Positions 40,440-48,703 of a DNA stretch of 64,000 bases are shown here, one piece after another. The DNA is from Deltaproteobacteria bacterium. GTDB lineage: Bacteria > Desulfobacterota > GWC2-55-46 > DRQE01. Where the stretch lies: assembly GCA_015492245.1 (NCBI GenBank), contig WGFM01000025.1:1-64000 (forward strand), given 5' to 3'. The notes under the pieces were generated by a model. It searched no databases. It had not been told where the DNA came from and saw only the letters and a program-made list of their open reading frames with translations. Positions within the stretch are counted from its first letter, which is position 1. Every line of letters starts with the position of its first letter. A program made the position numbers and the translations under genes.

Positions 40440-41231
40440 ATGTTCTATAGAAATGTTACCACTGAAGAGGCCACCTCCCTTGTTGTTCTCACGCCTTCGG
40501 AGTCTAAAAGGCTTATAGCAAGGGCTGTAAGGGCTCTGCCGGAGGTAAGGCAGGCACTCAGGGAGGGTATGATAGTAATCATAGGAGGAACCACCAACGC
40601 CTTTGTGCTGGAAGAGTTGCTCTCAAAAGATATAGACAAGGTGCGATTTGCCGCAGGCCTTGTTGCAAGGGGAAGGCTCGATGTAAACAGGCCTGAAGAG
40701 AGGATACCCCCGGTGGTGCTCAAAAGGGGTGAGCCCCTGCTGGGTGTGCATCCAAAGGATGCCATAAAGGAGTTTACAGCCAGAGATGTATACATAAAGG
40801 GGGCAAATGCGGTGGATACAGAGGGCAATGCCGCCGTGTTTATGGCAGACCCCCGGGGAGGCACCATAGGGGCTGCCCTGGGAGTGCTCAGGGCAAGGGG
40901 GGCAAACCTTATAGTGCCTGTGGGGCTCGAGAAACTCGTCCCATCTGTTAAAGAGGCAGCCCCTCTTTGTGGAATAGAGAGGATAGAGCAATCCACAGGT
41001 GAGAAGGTGGGACTCATGCCCATTGTGGGTGCAAAGGTTGTAACAGAGCTCGATGCAGTGGATGTGCTGTTTGGCACAGAAGGTGTGAGGGCCGTGCATG
41101 TGGCCTCTGGCGGGGTGGCAGGCTCAGAAGGGGCAGTAGTCCTTGCCCTTACTGGAAAGAAGGAAGGGGTAAGAAAGACCTTCCACTATATAACAGAATT
41201 TAAGGGAGAGCCCCCTCTGAAGAAAAATTAA
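40440..41231 (+). CDS. Conserved hypothetical protein, function unknown
   Basis: I do not recognise a characterised family. The 263-residue soluble protein opens with L-T-P-S-E-S-K-R-L-I-A-R-A-V, has an I-I-G-G-T-T-N-A-F-V-L-E-E-L turn near 48-61, then V-Y-I-K-G-A-N-A-V-D-T-E-G-N near 115-128 and G-G-T-I-G-A-A-L-G near 138-146. It ends with H-V-A-S-G-G-V-A-G-S-E-G. The alternation of hydrophobic strands and glycine turns suggests an alpha/beta sugar-isomerase or CoA-transferase-like fold, but this is only an impression. It has its own ribosome site (AGGAGG before 40440) 22 bp after lptD and ends the long run before the FNR-type site. Confidence 0.75.
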   Translation: MFYRNVTTEEATSLVVLTPSESKRLIARAVRALPEVRQALREGMIVIIGGTTNAFVLEELLSKDIDKVRFAAGLVARGRLDVNRPEERIPPVVLKRGEPLLGVHPKDAIKEFTARDVYIKGANAVDTEGNAAVFMADPRGGTIGAALGVLRARGANLIVPVGLEKLVPSVKEAAPLCGIERIEQSTGEKVGLMPIVGAKVVTELDAVDVLFGTEGVRAVHVASGGVAGSEGAVVLALTGKKEGVRKTFHYITEFKGEPPLKKN

Positions 41232-41246
41232 AAAATTTTAAAAATA

Positions 41247-41260
41247 TTGATAAATATCAT
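41247..41260 (+). promoter_or_regulatory. FNR/Dnr-family operator upstream of the heme d1 locus
   Basis: TTGAT-AAAT-ATCAT matches the FNR/CRP-superfamily consensus TTGAT-N4-ATCAA at nine of ten fixed bases. Its centre lies about 42 nt before a start site predicted from the downstream -10 TATGGT (41283-41288), which is the position for a class II activator. It is in the only AT-rich gap (41232-41323) before the SUMT gene. An oxygen- or NO-responsive Crp/Fnr regulator is therefore likely; the regulator gene is not in the window. Confidence 0.65.
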
Positions 41261-41323: not shown

Positions 41324-42106
41324 ATGGCAGGCGGGGTTTACATCGTCGGGGCAGGTCCCGGGGACCCTGAACTCTTGACTATTAAGGCTTTAAAGATCCT
41401 CCGCAAAGCAGATGTGGTAATCTATGACAGGCTTGTGGGCAAAGAGATACTTGCCTGCGCCAGACCCTCGGCACTACTTCTCTATGTAGGAAAGGAAGAC
41501 GGCCACCACTCACTCACCCAGAGCAGAATAAACAAACTTCTTATTAAATATGCAGAGAAGGGTTGCACCGTCGTAAGGCTCAAGGGTGGAGACCCTTTTG
41601 TGTTTGGCAGAGGTGGTGAAGAGGCCCTGTTTCTTGCCTCAAAGGGGATACCTTTCGAGGTGATACCTGGCATAACCTCGGCAATAGGGGTGCCCATATA
41701 CGCCGGCATACCACTTACATACAGGGGGGTGGCATCGAGTTTTGCAGTGGTTACAGGCAGAGAGGCGGAGTTCAAGAAGGAGTCAACCATAGACTTTGGC
41801 TCCCTTTCGGGTATAGACACGCTCGTGTTCCTGATGGCAGTCTCATCCAGAAAAGAGATTGCACGAAGGCTCATTAAGGGAGGAAGAGACCCTGCAGAGC
41901 CTGTTGCGTTCATAGAAGAGGGCACCACAGATAGCCAGAGGGTTGTGCTTTCAACACTCGGAGAGGTTGCCACCAGCCCCCCGCTGGTAAGGCCTCCGGC
42001 AATATTTCTGGTGGGAAGGGTTGTGATGTTCAGGGAAAAACTTGGATGGTTCGAAAGAAGAGACTACGGAGAAGCAAGATTTTATGATGGAATAGGTTAT
42101 ATTTAG
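41324..42106 (+). CDS. Uroporphyrinogen-III C-methyltransferase (SUMT; NirE/CobA)
   Basis: Methylates uroporphyrinogen III twice to precorrin-2, the branch point to siroheme, cobalamin and heme d1. The 260-residue single-domain enzyme begins with V-G-A-G-P-G-D-P-E-L-L-T at 7-18 and has the G-G-D-P-F-V-F-G-R-G-G-E-E motif near 84-96 and P-G-I-T-S-A near 113. As first gene of the d1 locus it corresponds to NirE in role, though it may also feed siroheme or B12. The ribosome site GAGGGGG lies before ATG 41324. No precorrin-2 dehydrogenase/ferrochelatase gene is in the window. Confidence 0.94.
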   Translation: MAGGVYIVGAGPGDPELLTIKALKILRKADVVIYDRLVGKEILACARPSALLLYVGKEDGHHSLTQSRINKLLIKYAEKGCTVVRLKGGDPFVFGRGGEEALFLASKGIPFEVIPGITSAIGVPIYAGIPLTYRGVASSFAVVTGREAEFKKESTIDFGSLSGIDTLVFLMAVSSRKEIARRLIKGGRDPAEPVAFIEEGTTDSQRVVLSTLGEVATSPPLVRPPAIFLVGRVVMFREKLGWFERRDYGEARFYDGIGYI

Positions 42107-42157
42107 ATATATAGATGTATGTATCAATGTAGAACAGCCTTAAAAAGAGAGGCTAAG

Positions 42158-43147
42158 ATGTTAATTCCCACAGATACAATCCTTGAAGAAAGGGTTGTAA
42201 GGGAGCTTCAGGAGGGAATCCCCATCGAGAAGGAGCCCTTCAGGGTGCTCGCCGAAAGGCTCGGCTCCGATGAGAAGAGGTTTCTCACCATCGTAGCACA
42301 TCTTAAAGAGACAGGTCTTATAAGAAATATATCCCCCATATATGATACAAGGATGCTCGGCTACGACTCTGCACTTGTGGCATTCAGGGTGAGGCCCGAA
42401 AGGCTCGAGGATGTGGCAGCCCATGTGAGCCTGCACCAGGGGGTCTCTCACAATTATGAACGCCAGCATGTGTTCAACCTGTGGTTTACACTTGCAGTGC
42501 CATCCAGTGGTAACGGTATGCTCGAAGGTGAGGTTGAAAGACTTGCACAAAAGGATGGGGTGGAAGAGTTTGTGGTGCTCCGCACGAAAAAGATGTTCAA
42601 GATAGGGGTAAGGCTTGATCCCTCTCAGGATGCAAGGGCAAAAGAGAGAGTGGAAAGAAAGAGACACAGCTTTATGCCCCTTACAGAAGAAGAAAAGAAT
42701 GTTGTGCGTATAACCCAGATGGATATGGAGCCGGCTCAAAGACCCTTCCTTGTATATGCAGAGAGGCTGGAGATGAAAGAGGATGCCCTCATTGAAAAAC
42801 TCCGTGAGTTCCATGAAAGGGGGGTATTGAGAAGGGTTGCGGCCATATTCAGACACAGAAGGGTGGGGTTCGTGGCCAATGGTATGAGTGTGTGGAAGGT
42901 GCCTTCCCAGAGGGTTGAAGAGGTTGGTGGATTTGTGGCTTCCTTCAAGGGGGTCTCTCACTGCTACGAGAGAAGTATTGATGGTAACGGATGGGACTAC
43001 AATCTTTTTGCAATGATACATGGTAAAAAGACAGAGGATGTTAGAGGTGTAGTAGAGGAAATCAAAAAAGAGACGGGCATAGATGACTGCCAGATCCTTT
43101 ACACGAAGAGGGAGTTCAAGAAAGAGCGTATCAGGTACTTTATTTAG
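42158..43147 (+). CDS. nirDL: Fused siroheme decarboxylase NirDL (AhbA/AhbB-like)
   Basis: Decarboxylates siroheme at C12 and C18 to didecarboxysiroheme, the shared intermediate of heme d1 and alternative heme synthesis. The 329-residue protein is a tandem of two Lrp/AsnC-like units: each has a winged helix (about 10-60 and 175-225) and an alpha/beta domain. The paired motifs are G-V-S-H-N-Y-E-R near 98-105 and G-V-S-H-C-Y-E-R near 267-274, the histidine-bearing active-site signature. ATG 42158 (AGAGG 5 nt upstream) is preferred to an in-frame codon at 42119. The position after SUMT and before d1 proteins supports the d1 branch. Confidence 0.92.
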   Translation: MLIPTDTILEERVVRELQEGIPIEKEPFRVLAERLGSDEKRFLTIVAHLKETGLIRNISPIYDTRMLGYDSALVAFRVRPERLEDVAAHVSLHQGVSHNYERQHVFNLWFTLAVPSSGNGMLEGEVERLAQKDGVEEFVVLRTKKMFKIGVRLDPSQDARAKERVERKRHSFMPLTEEEKNVVRITQMDMEPAQRPFLVYAERLEMKEDALIEKLREFHERGVLRRVAAIFRHRRVGFVANGMSVWKVPSQRVEEVGGFVASFKGVSHCYERSIDGNGWDYNLFAMIHGKKTEDVRGVVEEIKKETGIDDCQILYTKREFKKERIRYFI

Positions 43148-44573
43148 CACTTTTATCTTTATTTTCACAGTTTTTTTCCTTGCTCTTTTTTGCACGACCC
43201 CTCGAGCCGACATTGAGGCAGGCAGGGCCCTGTATTTGAAGCACTGTGCTACCTGCCACAGTGCAGACAGATACGGAAGCTCTGCCCCGCCGCTGATACC
43301 GCTTACCCTCGGCAAGCATGGAAAGTTGCGGGTGGAGAAGATTATAGCCGATGGGCTTCCTGCAACGAACATGCCTTCCTACAGGGGCGCCATAGATGCC
43401 AGAGGTATAAAGGCGATTGTGGACTACATATTCTCACCAGCAGCCCCGCCTGTATGGACAATAAAGGAGATGCTGAAGACCCACAGGGTAAGCTCCACCC
43501 CGAGCTCCCGGCCAGTGCATGGACATGATCTTTCAAACCTCTTTCTCGTGGTGGAAGGTGGAAAAGGGGAGGTCTGTGTCATGGAGGGCAAGGGGTTCAA
43601 TGTGCTCGACCGTGTAAAGGTGGGCAAGATTCATGGGGGGCCAAAGTTCGACTACTCTTTCCGCTATGCCTACATGGTCTCGAGAGATGGATGGATAGTA
43701 AAATACGACCTTTATGGTCTCAAAGAGATAGCCCGCATAAGGGCAGGTATAAACACACGCAACATAGCTGTCTCAGACGATGGAAGAATGCTTGCCGTGG
43801 CAAACTATCTGCCTCAAGGTGTGGTGCTCATCGATACAGAGAGCATGAAGCCTGTCAAGATGCTTACAAGCACAGGCAGGATCGGGGCGGTGTACAACAT
43901 GAAGGGGAAAAAACTCTTCATAGCCCTTCCAAGGGGAAGAGAAGAGTTCTTCCTTATAGACTACAGCGGAAAGGGAGTAAGGGTAAAAAGGGTGGGTATC
44001 CCTGTAAGTTTCGATGATGTCTTTATGGAGCCAGGAGGCAGATACCTTGTGGGCACCTCAAGAGACAAGGAGAAGATGGTGGTGTTCGATATGATAAGTG
44101 GCATGGTGTCAAGAGAGTTTCGTGTGGACGGTATGCCCCATCTGGCATCAGCAGCATTGTGGAAAGATGGTAGCACCATATACGCGGCAATACCCCATAT
44201 AAAGAAGCCTGTGCTTACCATAATGAGGCTCTATGACTGGAAGGTGGTAAAGACTGTCAAGCTCAAAGGGGCAGGATTCTTCGCAAGAACACACCCTGGA
44301 ACAGACTACATATGGGTGGACACCAATACAGATACAATACAGCTTATAGATAGAAAGAGCCTCGAGATAAAGAGAGAGATTACACCGGAAAGAGGCAGAA
44401 GGGCCATGCATATAGAGTTTACAAAAGATGGCAGATACGCACTGATAAGTATATGGGAGAAAGAGGGGGCAGTTGTTATATACGATACAGAAAGGCTGAA
44501 GCCTGTTAAGGTTCTGCCTTTCAGTAGACCTGTGGGTAAATATAATGCAACAAATAAGACCCACATTATGTAG
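43083..44573 (+). CDS. Cytochrome c-heme d1 domain protein, NirN-like
   Basis: The 496-residue exported protein has a signal/anchor (about 17-42), a monoheme class I cytochrome c domain (C55-x-x-C58-H59, Met97 as likely sixth ligand in N-M-P-S-Y-R) and an eight-bladed heme d1 propeller (about 145-496) that ends with G-K-Y-N-A-T-N-K. In the d1 domain, the position of the NirS His327 (L-H-D) is F-D-D, while the second pocket histidine is kept in G-M-P-H-L. This fits NirN (dihydro-heme d1 dehydrogenase or d1 carrier) better than catalytic NirS. No ATG, GTG or TTG codon follows 43083 before the signal peptide, so it overlaps nirDL by 65 bp. Confidence 0.82.
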   Translation: MTARSFTRRGSSRKSVSGTLFSTFIFIFTVFFLALFCTTPRADIEAGRALYLKHCATCHSADRYGSSAPPLIPLTLGKHGKLRVEKIIADGLPATNMPSYRGAIDARGIKAIVDYIFSPAAPPVWTIKEMLKTHRVSSTPSSRPVHGHDLSNLFLVVEGGKGEVCVMEGKGFNVLDRVKVGKIHGGPKFDYSFRYAYMVSRDGWIVKYDLYGLKEIARIRAGINTRNIAVSDDGRMLAVANYLPQGVVLIDTESMKPVKMLTSTGRIGAVYNMKGKKLFIALPRGREEFFLIDYSGKGVRVKRVGIPVSFDDVFMEPGGRYLVGTSRDKEKMVVFDMISGMVSREFRVDGMPHLASAALWKDGSTIYAAIPHIKKPVLTIMRLYDWKVVKTVKLKGAGFFARTHPGTDYIWVDTNTDTIQLIDRKSLEIKREITPERGRRAMHIEFTKDGRYALISIWEKEGAVVIYDTERLKPVKVLPFSRPVGKYNATNKTHIM

Positions 44574-44601: not shown

Positions 44602-44732
44602 ATACATTAAAAACAACTTAAAGAAGAAGAAAGGAGGTGTGGTATTTGAGGGTAGGCTTTACATAGGAGACTATCTTATGTATCGAGTAATTTAAATTAT
44701 AAAGTTAAAATTTAAAAGGAGGGGCAGTAGAG

Positions 44733-45968
44733 ATGGGTAGAAAGGCATTACTAACTTACTTTTGGATGATACTTCCTGCCATAGTTGTAGCACTTACCCT
44801 CTCAACAGGTGTGGCTTTTGCCAAGAAGGCACCTGGCACCTATGGCACCGCCAATCTCATGGTGGTGGTTGAGAGGGATCCTGCGAGTATACTCATAATA
44901 GATGGCACAGACCATGAGGTCATAGGCAGGGTGAAGCTTCCTGATGCGAAGCAGCCCCATGCGCCAGTATTCTCGCCCGATGGCAGATACTACTATGTGA
45001 TGGGGCGTAACGGGATATACTACAAGGTAGACCTCATGAAGCAGAAGGTTGTGGCAAAGCAGACGATAGGTGAGGACTCAAGGGGGTCTGCCATAACTCC
45101 TGATGGAAAGTATGTGGTGGCAGGCAACTACAGGCCAGGTACAGCCGTTATAATGGATGCAAGGGACCTCAAGATACTGAAGACCATAAAGGGCCCGAAG
45201 GCCCTGGCAAAGGGTAAGATCATACAGTCAAGGGCTGCATCCATAACCGATGTGGGTGGTGTGAAGAACCTTATGGCCATAGCATGGAAGGACGCTGGAG
45301 AGGTATGGATCGTGGACATGAAGAACCCCAAGTTCCCCATTATAAAGAAGTTCAAGGGTGCAGGGGCAGCGCTGCATGATTCCTTCGTTACAGAGGATGG
45401 CCGTTACTACATGCTCGCCTCGCAGGCATCACACCACATGTGGATACTGGATGCCTACGAGCTCGAGTATCTGGGAACCATAAGCACCCATCCGAACTCA
45501 AAGGTGCCAGGTAAGATTCCCCATCCGGGCCCTGGTGCATGTGTGGAGGATATATGTTTCGAAACCAATGTGGCCACAGGCACGGTAACCGCCTACAAGC
45601 CCGCAACACTTGAGTTCGTGAAGAACATACCCACCTCTGGTGCGAAGAATCCGGGTGGGCTCTTCATAAGGAAGCATCCTGGAGCCAAGGTTGTGGTGGC
45701 AGACGCAGTCTTCCATGAGGGCAAAAAGCACAGCAAGGTTTATGTGATAGATGCAGAAACCCTCAAGGTGGTCAAAAAGCTCGAAGTAGGTCCTGGTGCC
45801 CTACATCCTGAGTTTACAGCAAAGGGAGCATACATGTATGTCCCCTCATGGGGTGGCAATAAGATAGTTGTGTTTGATGGTAGAACCTTCAAGAAGATAA
45901 AGGAGATACCGGCAACCACCCCAACTTCCATAATAAACTCGGGTAGAACACATGAAAATGGGCTATAA
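44733..45968 (+). CDS. Stand-alone heme d1 propeller protein, NirS-like without cytochrome c domain
   Basis: This 411-residue protein has a Sec signal peptide (1-30, ending A-F-A) and then only a d1-type beta-propeller. Aligned by eye with the d1 half of cytochrome cd1 nitrite reductase, it keeps three key histidines: H76 (Q-P-H-A-P-V-F-S, the proximal iron ligand position), H215 (A-A-L-H-D, the His327 position) and H264 (I-P-H-P-G-P-G, the His369 position in Pseudomonas numbering). NirF and NirN lack the full set. The CxxCH of NirS is absent, so electrons must come from another protein; a CuA cupredoxin gene follows 27 bp later. Nitrite or NO chemistry is plausible but unproven. A d1 carrier role is the alternative. 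Confidence 0.82.
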   Translation: MGRKALLTYFWMILPAIVVALTLSTGVAFAKKAPGTYGTANLMVVVERDPASILIIDGTDHEVIGRVKLPDAKQPHAPVFSPDGRYYYVMGRNGIYYKVDLMKQKVVAKQTIGEDSRGSAITPDGKYVVAGNYRPGTAVIMDARDLKILKTIKGPKALAKGKIIQSRAASITDVGGVKNLMAIAWKDAGEVWIVDMKNPKFPIIKKFKGAGAALHDSFVTEDGRYYMLASQASHHMWILDAYELEYLGTISTHPNSKVPGKIPHPGPGACVEDICFETNVATGTVTAYKPATLEFVKNIPTSGAKNPGGLFIRKHPGAKVVVADAVFHEGKKHSKVYVIDAETLKVVKKLEVGPGALHPEFTAKGAYMYVPSWGGNKIVVFDGRTFKKIKEIPATTPTSIINSGRTHENGL

Positions 45969-45995: not shown

Positions 45996-46367
45996 ATGAG
46001 AAGGATAATCCTTACGGGATTGATAATCCTTTCACTATCTTTGATAGTCTTTTCACCAAAAATCTCTGCGGCTACAGTAGAGATGAATATGGTGGCTGAC
46101 CAGTACTACTTCGACCCCGAGGTGATAAAGGTCAAAAGTGGTGATACGCTCATAATTCATATAGAATCCCTGATGAGCGAGATGGAGAACTTTCCGCTTC
46201 ACAGCATATTCTTCCCGGCGCTTAACAAGAGGTGGGATCTGCCAACAGGGAAGACTACCACAATAAAGTTCAAGGTGGACCTGCCACCAGGTGAGTATCC
46301 TTTCGAGTGTGACATATACTGTGGCCTTGCGCATCCAGACATGAAAGGGGTACTGATAGTGGAGTAG
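45996..46367 (+). CDS. Secreted single-domain CuA-type cupredoxin
   Basis: A 123-residue protein with a signal peptide (1-25, ending I-S-A-A) and one cupredoxin fold. The C-terminal loop C105-D-I-Y-C109-G-L-A-H113-P-D-M116 has exactly the CuA spacing C-x3-C-x3-H-x2-M of cytochrome oxidase subunit II and nitrous oxide reductase, and H69 in F-P-L-H-S supplies the upstream histidine. There is no oxidase or N2O reductase gene nearby and no extra membrane helix. As the gene sits between a d1 catalytic-type protein and nirJ, I infer that it delivers electrons to the d1 protein. Ribosome site AAGGAG precedes ATG 45996. Confidence 0.85.
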   Translation: MRRIILTGLIILSLSLIVFSPKISAATVEMNMVADQYYFDPEVIKVKSGDTLIIHIESLMSEMENFPLHSIFFPALNKRWDLPTGKTTTIKFKVDLPPGEYPFECDIYCGLAHPDMKGVLIVE

Positions 46368-46373
46368 GCTGGC

Positions 46374-47531
46374 ATGTTGAATGTAACCAAGATGATACGG
46401 GGGGCTTCCTGCAAGAGGAAGCCCCCATCGTATCCGCACAGACCTGTTGTGGTGTGGAATGTAACGAAACGGTGTAACCTCAGTTGCGAGCACTGTTACT
46501 CTGCCTCAAGTGATACACTATACCCTGATGAACTCACCACAGAAGAGGCACAGGAGTTCATAAGAGACCTTGCAGACTACAGAGTGCCAGCCCTCATACT
46601 CTCGGGGGGCGAGCCCCTTCTGAGGAAAGACATCCTTGAGCTTGCCTCGTTGAGCTCGAGGCTCGGCATAGGCACAGCCCTTTCCACAAATGGAACCCTC
46701 ATAGATGAACAGATGGCAAGGCGGATAAAAGAAAGTGGTATATACTATGTGGGTATAAGCGTAGACGGTGATGAACAGACCCATGATATGTTCAGGGGAG
46801 AGAAGGGTAGCTTCCACAGCTCCATAGAGGGCATAAGGGCATGCCTCAAGGCCGGCCTCAAGGTGGGCCTGCGGTTCACCATGACACAGAAGACCCTTGA
46901 GTGCCTGCCGTTTGTGTTCGAGCTTGCAAAGATGGAGGGATGTCACAGGCTCTATCTGTCCCATCTTGTGTATGTGGGCAGGGGCCGAAGGCTCTCTTCG
47001 GATGCCCCGGATACAGAAAAGATGCGTAATACCATGAACATTGTGTTCGGTCATGTGGAAAAGATGCTAAGAGAAGGCTCCCAGTTGGAAGTGGTTACAG
47101 GCAATAATGATGTGGATGGAATATACCTCTACTACAGGTATCTCACCATAGACCCCCATATGGCAAACTCCATATATCTTGGGCTTGAGGAGAGGGGAGG
47201 AAATACAGCAGGCAGACTCATAGCCTCTGTGGATAGCTTCGGCAATATACACCCCGACCAGTACTGGTCCCTTTACAGGGTGGGCAATGTGAAAGAAAGG
47301 AGGCTTTCTGATGTGTGGAGCGATGAAGACCAGCCACTGCTACGAAGCCTCAGAAACAGGCTGGATTTCCTCAAGGGCAAGTGCAGTATATGCATGCACC
47401 GCAGACTTTGTGCAGGAAACTCAAGGATAAGGGCAAGATATTTCTATGGAGACCTCTGGGCAGAAGACCCCGCATGCTACCTTACAGACACTGAGCGGGG
47501 CATAAATACAGATTCTCTGGAGGCTATATGA
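46374..47531 (+). CDS. nirJ: Heme d1 biosynthesis radical SAM protein NirJ
   Basis: NirJ replaces two propionate side chains of didecarboxysiroheme with oxo groups. The 385-residue radical SAM/SPASM-type protein has the SAM cluster C34-x3-C38-x2-C41 in K-R-C-N-L-S-C-E-H-C-Y, the glycine motif S-G-G-E-P-L-L near 79-85 and a C-terminal cysteine set in G-K-C-S-I-C-M-H-R-R-L-C, expected to hold a second 4Fe-4S cluster. It starts 6 bp after the CuA gene and overlaps nirF by 4 bp. Confidence 0.93.
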   Translation: MLNVTKMIRGASCKRKPPSYPHRPVVVWNVTKRCNLSCEHCYSASSDTLYPDELTTEEAQEFIRDLADYRVPALILSGGEPLLRKDILELASLSSRLGIGTALSTNGTLIDEQMARRIKESGIYYVGISVDGDEQTHDMFRGEKGSFHSSIEGIRACLKAGLKVGLRFTMTQKTLECLPFVFELAKMEGCHRLYLSHLVYVGRGRRLSSDAPDTEKMRNTMNIVFGHVEKMLREGSQLEVVTGNNDVDGIYLYYRYLTIDPHMANSIYLGLEERGGNTAGRLIASVDSFGNIHPDQYWSLYRVGNVKERRLSDVWSDEDQPLLRSLRNRLDFLKGKCSICMHRRLCAGNSRIRARYFYGDLWAEDPACYLTDTERGINTDSLEAI

Positions 47532-48703
47532 AGCGACTCATTTTTATTATAACAATGCTTATCCTTACACCCATGCCCTCACCTGCGATGGACTATGGCA
47601 CAGGGGGGCTGGTGGTAATCGTTGAAAGAAAAGCGGGTAGTGTGCTCATTGTAGACTCTACACGGCACAGATTACTCAAAAGGATAACAGGGGTTGGCAA
47701 CCTTCATCACGGAACAGTAAAATTTTCAAGGGATATGCACCATGCCTATGTCATTACAAGAACCGCAGGGGTTACCAAGATAGACCTCCATACCCTCAAG
47801 ATTGTAAAAAAGGTTAGTGCAGGCAAGGATTCTGTGGGTGGGGTTATGAGCCAGGATGGTAGATATATCGCCCTCAGTAACTACGAGCCAGGAGAGGTGA
47901 AGATCCTCGATGCAGAGAGCCTCAATGTGGTCAAAAGCATAAGGGCATACGCAAAAGATACCGTCGGCAAACCCATAGAAAGCAGGGTGGTGGGGCTTGT
48001 GGATGCTCCTGGGGGAAGGCTTGTATTCTCGCTTATGGATGGCAGGGAAATTTGGGTTGTGGATGCATCGAGGAAGGATTTCCCCATTGTAAAGAGGTAT
48101 AAACATATAGGCGGTTTTCCCTATGATGCCCTTATAACGCCGGATGGCAGATACTATATAGCAGGGCTGCTTGGCTCGAACAAGGTGGCCGTGGTGGACC
48201 TCTGGAAGGAGAGGGTAAAGCTTGTAAGCCTGCATGAAGAGGAGAACAAAGATGAGGCACCCCTCTGGAAGATACCACATCTTAAGGGATGGGCCATAAC
48301 AGGCAGGTATGCCATACTGCCGGATGTGCAGAGGGAATGGGCAGTGGTGCTGGATATGGAAGAACTCAAGGTGGTAAAACGCATCCCCCTCAATGGCACA
48401 GCCCTATACACGGTAGTCCAGCCGGGTGGAAGGTATGTGTGGGTAGATCTTGTAGGAGAAAAGGGCGACATGATAGACATAATAGATGTGGAGAAACTCA
48501 AGGTCATAAAGACCATAACCCCTGGCAGGGGTGCCACCCACCCGCAGTTTACGGCCAAGGGTGAATATGCCTATATATCCCTTATGAAGGGCGGCAGGGT
48601 TGTTGTCTATGAGACCGCCACATTTAAAAAGATAAAGGAGTTTCCTGCCGACCATCCATCAGGCATATTCTTTACCTACAGGGCATACAGGTTCGGCATG
48701 TAA
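47528..48703 (+). CDS. nirF: Heme d1 biosynthesis protein NirF
   Basis: NirF acts late in d1 assembly as a dihydro-heme d1 dehydrogenase in the periplasm. The 391-residue protein has a short signal peptide (about 1-20, ending S-P-A-M) and a d1 propeller. The F-P-Y-D-A-L-I-T-P-D-G-R-Y-Y segment is the NirF signature, with tyrosine where NirS has the His327 pocket residue; H58/H59 are at the iron-ligand position and P-H-L at the second pocket position. It closes the locus. No lipobox cysteine is present, unlike some NirF proteins. Confidence 0.9.
   Translation: MKRLIFIITMLILTPMPSPAMDYGTGGLVVIVERKAGSVLIVDSTRHRLLKRITGVGNLHHGTVKFSRDMHHAYVITRTAGVTKIDLHTLKIVKKVSAGKDSVGGVMSQDGRYIALSNYEPGEVKILDAESLNVVKSIRAYAKDTVGKPIESRVVGLVDAPGGRLVFSLMDGREIWVVDASRKDFPIVKRYKHIGGFPYDALITPDGRYYIAGLLGSNKVAVVDLWKERVKLVSLHEEENKDEAPLWKIPHLKGWAITGRYAILPDVQREWAVVLDMEELKVVKRIPLNGTALYTVVQPGGRYVWVDLVGEKGDMIDIIDVEKLKVIKTITPGRGATHPQFTAKGEYAYISLMKGGRVVVYETATFKKIKEFPADHPSGIFFTYRAYRFGM

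Follow-up and report, generated by a model that had tools for sequence, protein, structure and literature searches.

Heme d1 is classically regarded as the cofactor of a single enzyme, NirS, whose cytochrome c domain supplies the electrons. The 64,000-nucleotide stretch of DNA analyzed here (the window), which comes from a bacterium of hydrothermal vents, carries a heme d1 cluster that encodes, besides NirF and a NirN-like protein, a d1 propeller standing alone. The question is what such a protein may do: reduce nitrite, take part in the synthesis or delivery of the cofactor, or serve in another respiratory reaction.

Organization of the locus

The genes of the cluster lie on the forward strand in the order CobA/NirE, fused siroheme decarboxylase, NirN, d1 propeller, CuA cupredoxin, NirJ and NirF (Table 1). 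The product of the d1 propeller gene starts with a hydrophobic segment ending in AFA-KK, judged by eye to be a Sec-type signal. PF02239 is the sole domain covering the protein (233.6 bits against a cut-off of 25.5, profile positions 2-368 of 368), and neither a CxxCH motif nor a c-type domain was found in its 411 residues. The earlier note had described a secreted protein made of a d1 propeller only, without cytochrome c domain, and this description holds. The match to the d1 family is not a matter of chance.

Table 1. Features of the heme d1 locus (positions counted from the first nucleotide of the window)
Feature	Position	Strand	Details
FNR/Dnr-like box	41247..41260	+	TTGATAAATATCAT; 63 bp upstream of the first cluster gene
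Uroporphyrinogen-III C-methyltransferase CobA/NirE	41324..42106	+	TIGR01469, 290 bits (cut-off 185)
Fused siroheme decarboxylase NirD-NirL / AhbA-AhbB	42119..43147	+	AsnC_trans_reg2 and NirDL HTH domains, two of each
NirN-like protein	43083..44573	+	c-type domain and d1 propeller; Asp in place of the LHD histidine
Ribosome-binding site of the d1 propeller gene	44716..44722	+	AAGGAGG, read directly; 10 bases upstream of the ATG
Stand-alone d1 propeller gene	44733..45968	+	411 aa, intact ORF, ATG start
Small secreted CuA-type cupredoxin	45996..46367	+	123 aa; ligands H69, C105, C109, H113, M116
NirJ-like radical SAM protein	46374..47531	+	best model TIGR04051 (NirJ) 424.7 bits, below its cut-off of 515; AhbC 383 bits
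NirF	47528..48703	+	Tyr in place of the LHD histidine; PHL motif

The d1 pathway around the gene had previously been called complete. More exactly, it comprises CobA/NirE, with which the siroheme/d1 pathway starts, the fused NirD-NirL, on which the AhbA and AhbB models both exceed their cut-offs, the NirJ-like protein, which scores below its curated cut-off, and NirF and NirN; a separate NirC was not recognized in the cluster. The fused decarboxylase may serve both heme b and heme d1 in this genome, where AhbD is also present (L115). Anaerobic regulation is possible, but it is only the position of the FNR/Dnr-like box that suggests it, since such boxes occur in the window no more often than chance predicts. 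Upstream of the cluster, positions 40440-41231 encode a 263-aa protein with no Pfam or NCBIfam match.

Distribution of the gene and of its CuA neighbor

The d1 propeller gene was detected in three of the 63 genomes of the class, namely the window genome, G001 (HyVt-575, of the same genus; a partial ortholog with 88% identity over its 243 residues) and G015, which belongs to a different family of the order (64-66% identity), so that the group is known from three sequences, two of them from one genus and one partial. A sample of 395 genomes of the phylum contained no carrier besides the window genome, a scan of genome contigs with the ortholog alignment matched only the same-genus MAG HyVt-575, and no homolog was present on the viral contigs scanned.

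Behind the d1 propeller gene, all three carriers have a CuA cupredoxin gene. In the window its product possesses the complete CuA ligand set (His, Cys-x3-Cys, His, Met), while the cupredoxin of G015 is missing the first histidine, a point against nitrite reduction. The CuA partner assumed in the earlier note is thus a homologous gene conserved at this place.

Residues of the heme pocket

The pocket was aligned with those of NirS, NirN and NirF from the class itself as well as from proteobacterial and Thermus plasmids. The residues concerned are R48, H76, R92, R117, H215, H264 and W373. H76 is equivalent to H182, the proximal histidine of NirS, and lies 16 residues before R92, exactly as H182 does before R198; H215 (in L-H-D) aligns with H327 (in LHD) and H264 (in P-H-P-G-P-G) with H369 (in PHPGR). 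The retention of the NirS histidine set, claimed earlier, is thereby borne out at the level of the alignment. R48, R92 and R117 correspond to R156, R198 and R225, and W373 to W498. The roles of H182, H327, H369, R156, R198, R372 and W498 have been described for NirS (PMC7278500; see also PMC8756737), whereas R225 enters the comparison with no role cited for it. The sole change among the NirS pocket residues compared is that of R372, which together with R156 and R198 holds the acid groups of d1 (PMC7278500) and is replaced by P267. This replacement also speaks against a nitrite reductase; a Ruegeria protein of the NirS family likewise has a proline at the position. H215 and H264 are kept in the orthologs of 88% and 64-66% identity, and H76 in the single ortholog that covers it.

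The LHD histidine was found in 11 of 11 NirS, in all three members of the d1 propeller group and in one haloarchaeal sequence, but its position is occupied by tyrosine in NirF (10/10) and by Asp, Ser, Thr or Glu in NirN (9/9), including, as noted before, the NirF and the NirN-like protein of the locus itself. NirF additionally has no equivalents of R225 and W498, and NirN none of R156. Since LHD and PHPxxG are common to NirS, the d1 propeller group and the haloarchaeal protein, the simplest reading of the sequences would be that NirF and NirN have lost the catalytic histidine. NirN, which is also of the d1 propeller family, differs from the protein studied here in its c domain as well.

Denitrification genes and a candidate for the nitrite step

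The window genome encodes NarG (1478 bits) with NarH-, NarJ- and NarI-like neighbors, and two heme-copper subunits, each following a subunit II, with the active-site glutamine that marks eNOR (GHPSQQINV; PMC8756737). The two are located at L088:8134-10184 and L091:3474-5517, and a further eNOR-type subunit lies in G015 at L095:2079-4125; the motif across these loci is GHPSQQINV or GHASQQINV. A CuA motif was seen in the subunit II that was checked, which precedes the L088 copy. Next to the eNOR-type subunits lies a cytochrome b, and at L088 it is, judged by eye, a fusion with ferredoxin-type and HdrD/MvhD-like stretches.

A lactonase-type NosZ (L-NosZ) is present as well, with 778 bits against the cut-off of 700 (NCBIfam NF052460). 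In the L-NosZ of this order (L087:6145-7911 in the window genome, L099:3954-5666 in G015), C-x3-C-x3-H-x2-M is retained and a methionine stands in DVTMG or DVQMG, at what we take to be the position of the first copper histidine in the CuA domains of other NosZ.

In this MAG, listed as 100% complete, we found no NirS, no NrfA (weak partial matches occur in other genomes) and no NirK above the cut-off, bearing in mind that the absence of a gene from a MAG is no proof. The search for NirK yielded nothing but multicopper oxidase fragments scoring under the cut-off. Two of them were read, one in the window genome (L100, C4 near 27748) and one in G015; unlike NirK, both consist of two domains and have HCH motifs that belong to a trinuclear site. 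Within the class, d1-family proteins occur in 29 genomes and NirS in 25 of them, the remainder being the three carriers and G037. NirS is hence missing from 3/3 carriers versus 1/26 of the other d1-family genomes (one-sided Fisher p=0.001, a value that ignores kinship, two carriers belonging to one genus).

Given that Nar, eNOR and L-NosZ were found and NirS, NirK and NrfA were not, one gap remains in the pathway, the step from nitrite to NO. The stand-alone propeller is the only d1 protein of the genome with a NirS-type pocket, and its earlier nomination as the best candidate user of d1 is supported by this survey. We consider it most likely, with moderate confidence, to be a c-heme-free d1 nitrite reductase that forms NO and is fed by CuA. 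The analysis shows the assignment of the fold, the residues of the pocket, the position in the tree, the gene neighborhood and the inventory of enzymes in the genome, from which we infer heme d1 as its cofactor, the CuA protein as its donor, nitrite as its substrate and NO as its product. Heme d1 made by the surrounding gene products would sit in the eight-bladed propeller in the periplasm, with H76 as proximal ligand like H182 in NirS, and on the distal side H215 and H264 would bind nitrite and donate protons to it, like H327 and H369. Electrons, for which NirS uses its own c domain, would be supplied from outside, by the neighboring CuA protein or else by a c-type cytochrome. The eNOR-type reductases would take over the NO and the lactonase-type NosZ the N2O, which would complete the chain Nar - d1 - eNOR - NosZ.

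It might also be argued that the propeller binds a metal and, with CuA on a separate chain, constitutes a split lactonase-type N2O reductase, as it is rich in histidines, adjoins a CuA gene (L-NosZ carries CuA in the same chain) and is weakly matched by the L-NosZ model. We consider this very improbable. The match of 77.8 bits is far under the cut-off of 700, which rejects membership in NF052460, and equals that of NirF (77.5 bits), whereas the d1 model gives 233.6 bits; moreover, the true L-NosZ is encoded elsewhere in the genome.

The G015 locus

The genomic context differs in G015. Upstream of the ortholog lie genes for NrfD, a molybdoenzyme, a NapC-type cytochrome and an ethylbenzene-dehydrogenase-type heme protein; downstream of it the contig ends after two CuA-like genes, of which the first is complete and the second truncated. 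Such a context could indicate a d1- or heme-dependent respiratory enzyme which acts on another substrate as part of an NrfD - molybdoenzyme module. However, G055 has a homologous operon of NrfD, molybdoenzyme and cytochrome (42-55% identity), and the genes behind it encode a true NirS, a cytochrome and NirN; the ortholog therefore occupies the place of NirS. The window genome, furthermore, has no close homolog of the molybdoenzyme (best match 25% identity), and we regard an enzyme for another substrate as rather improbable. The molybdoenzyme of G015 (L034:6746-9271) is PhsA-like, with 277 bits against a cut-off of 694, and is without the N-terminal Fe-S cysteine motif that its G055 homolog has.

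The strongest negative finding for a nitrite reductase is that the G015 bin contains no d1 synthesis genes (NirF, NirN, NirJ and siroheme decarboxylase were looked for), and thus the G015 ortholog may not use d1. The notion that G015 is devoid of heme d1 is weakened, though, by two observations. AhbD is present in the bin without siroheme decarboxylase or NirJ/AhbC, and AhbD needs the same upstream enzymes; in addition, three NirS-bearing bins, G029 (L111), G040 (L112) and G046 (L113), also have neither NirF nor NirN. For these reasons the missing pathway is probably, at least in part, a gap in the bin. One of the three NirS-bearing bins is 96% complete, in about 30 contigs, and these organisms may have an alternative way of making heme d1.

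Predicted structure and phylogeny

An AlphaFold2 model of the d1 propeller protein, built from 20 aligned sequences, reached a mean pLDDT of 86 and a pTM of 0.84, with low confidence in the loop immediately before H264. Its best matches in the PDB are NirF (6tv2, TM 0.80), NirS (TM up to 0.80) and NirN (TM 0.73-0.76). In the maximum likelihood tree of propeller domains, the NirF sequences make up a fully supported clade, and the window protein and the G015 ortholog group together outside it, as its sister (100/100). Placement inside NirF, tested as grouping with the NirF of the class, was rejected (AU p=2.8e-5), as was a position as sister of NirS (AU p=0.002). The protein therefore does not group as a biosynthetic copy of NirF, in line with the earlier note. 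Judged by sequence, it is a real and conserved lineage of d1 proteins with a NirS-type pocket, separate from the others and closest to NirF, not to NirS. With NirS it shares the eight-bladed periplasmic d1 propeller, the proximal and both substrate histidines and the equivalents of R156, R198, R225 and W498, and it differs in the absence of the N-terminal cytochrome c domain, in the proline at R372 and in its position in the tree.

That the nearest relative in tree and sequence is a biosynthetic protein counts against nitrite reduction. As a second NirF-type protein, with CuA replacing NirC, the propeller could finish, carry or insert d1, the terminal enzyme being unrecognized or absent. Like NirF, it is a secreted single-domain d1 propeller; NirF is also its sister clade and its best PDB match, and its gene has its place in the d1 synthesis cluster, after NirN and before NirJ. 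It was recently reported that NirF and NirC introduce the keto groups of d1 (2026, PMC13168839), and a separate NirC was not recognized in the cluster; because of this report we keep a biosynthetic or chaperone role with CuA as the main rival explanation, although we find it unlikely. The cluster already holds NirN as well as NirF, the latter encoded 1.6 kb downstream of the d1 propeller gene. The substrate histidines and the tryptophan of NirS, partly or wholly lost in NirF and NirN, are kept: the protein has LHD, PHPGPG and the R225 and W498 equivalents where NirF has Y-D and PHL. Besides the rejected position inside NirF, the G015 ortholog is found in a locus of respiratory type, not in a synthesis cluster, and no other nitrite reductase was found that could receive the d1.

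Relation to haloarchaeal d1 proteins

The earlier note knew of no described enzyme with this architecture. This has to be qualified, as a Halobacteriota NirS-like clade without cytochrome c domain has been mentioned (PMC10999283, 2024); that clade appears there as an outgroup only and is uncharacterized. In the literature searched, we came across no account of a d1 enzyme from bacteria that lacks the c domain and is paired with CuA. There may be a separate family of c-less d1 nitrite reductases fed by soluble CuA, possibly spanning vent bacteria and haloarchaea and possibly representing the form before fusion with the c domain, an idea that we put forward only tentatively. A d1 enzyme that has no c domain and draws on a CuA donor would, if true, be a second architecture and would bear on the origin of the trio of NirS, NirN and NirF. 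Its carriers would be true denitrifiers that are left out by surveys demanding a c domain.

A haloarchaeal gene for a c-less d1 propeller, unannotated and frameshifted, is found on the Natrinema thermotolerans plasmid CP031304.1 (L055:6001-7106), and it probably belongs to the Halobacteriota clade. Joining the vent proteins with this sequence gave AU p=0.15, by which a common clade is neither favored nor rejected; this result concerns one frameshifted haloarchaeal sequence whose membership in the published clade is assumed. Neither a d1 cluster nor a CuA gene is annotated in the 13-kb stretch around it. The Natrinema protein differs from that of the window in being archaeal and uncharacterized, with a protein identity of about 34%, and resembles it in having a d1 propeller with no c domain and in the motifs LHD and PHPTPG, the latter being PHPGPG in the window protein.
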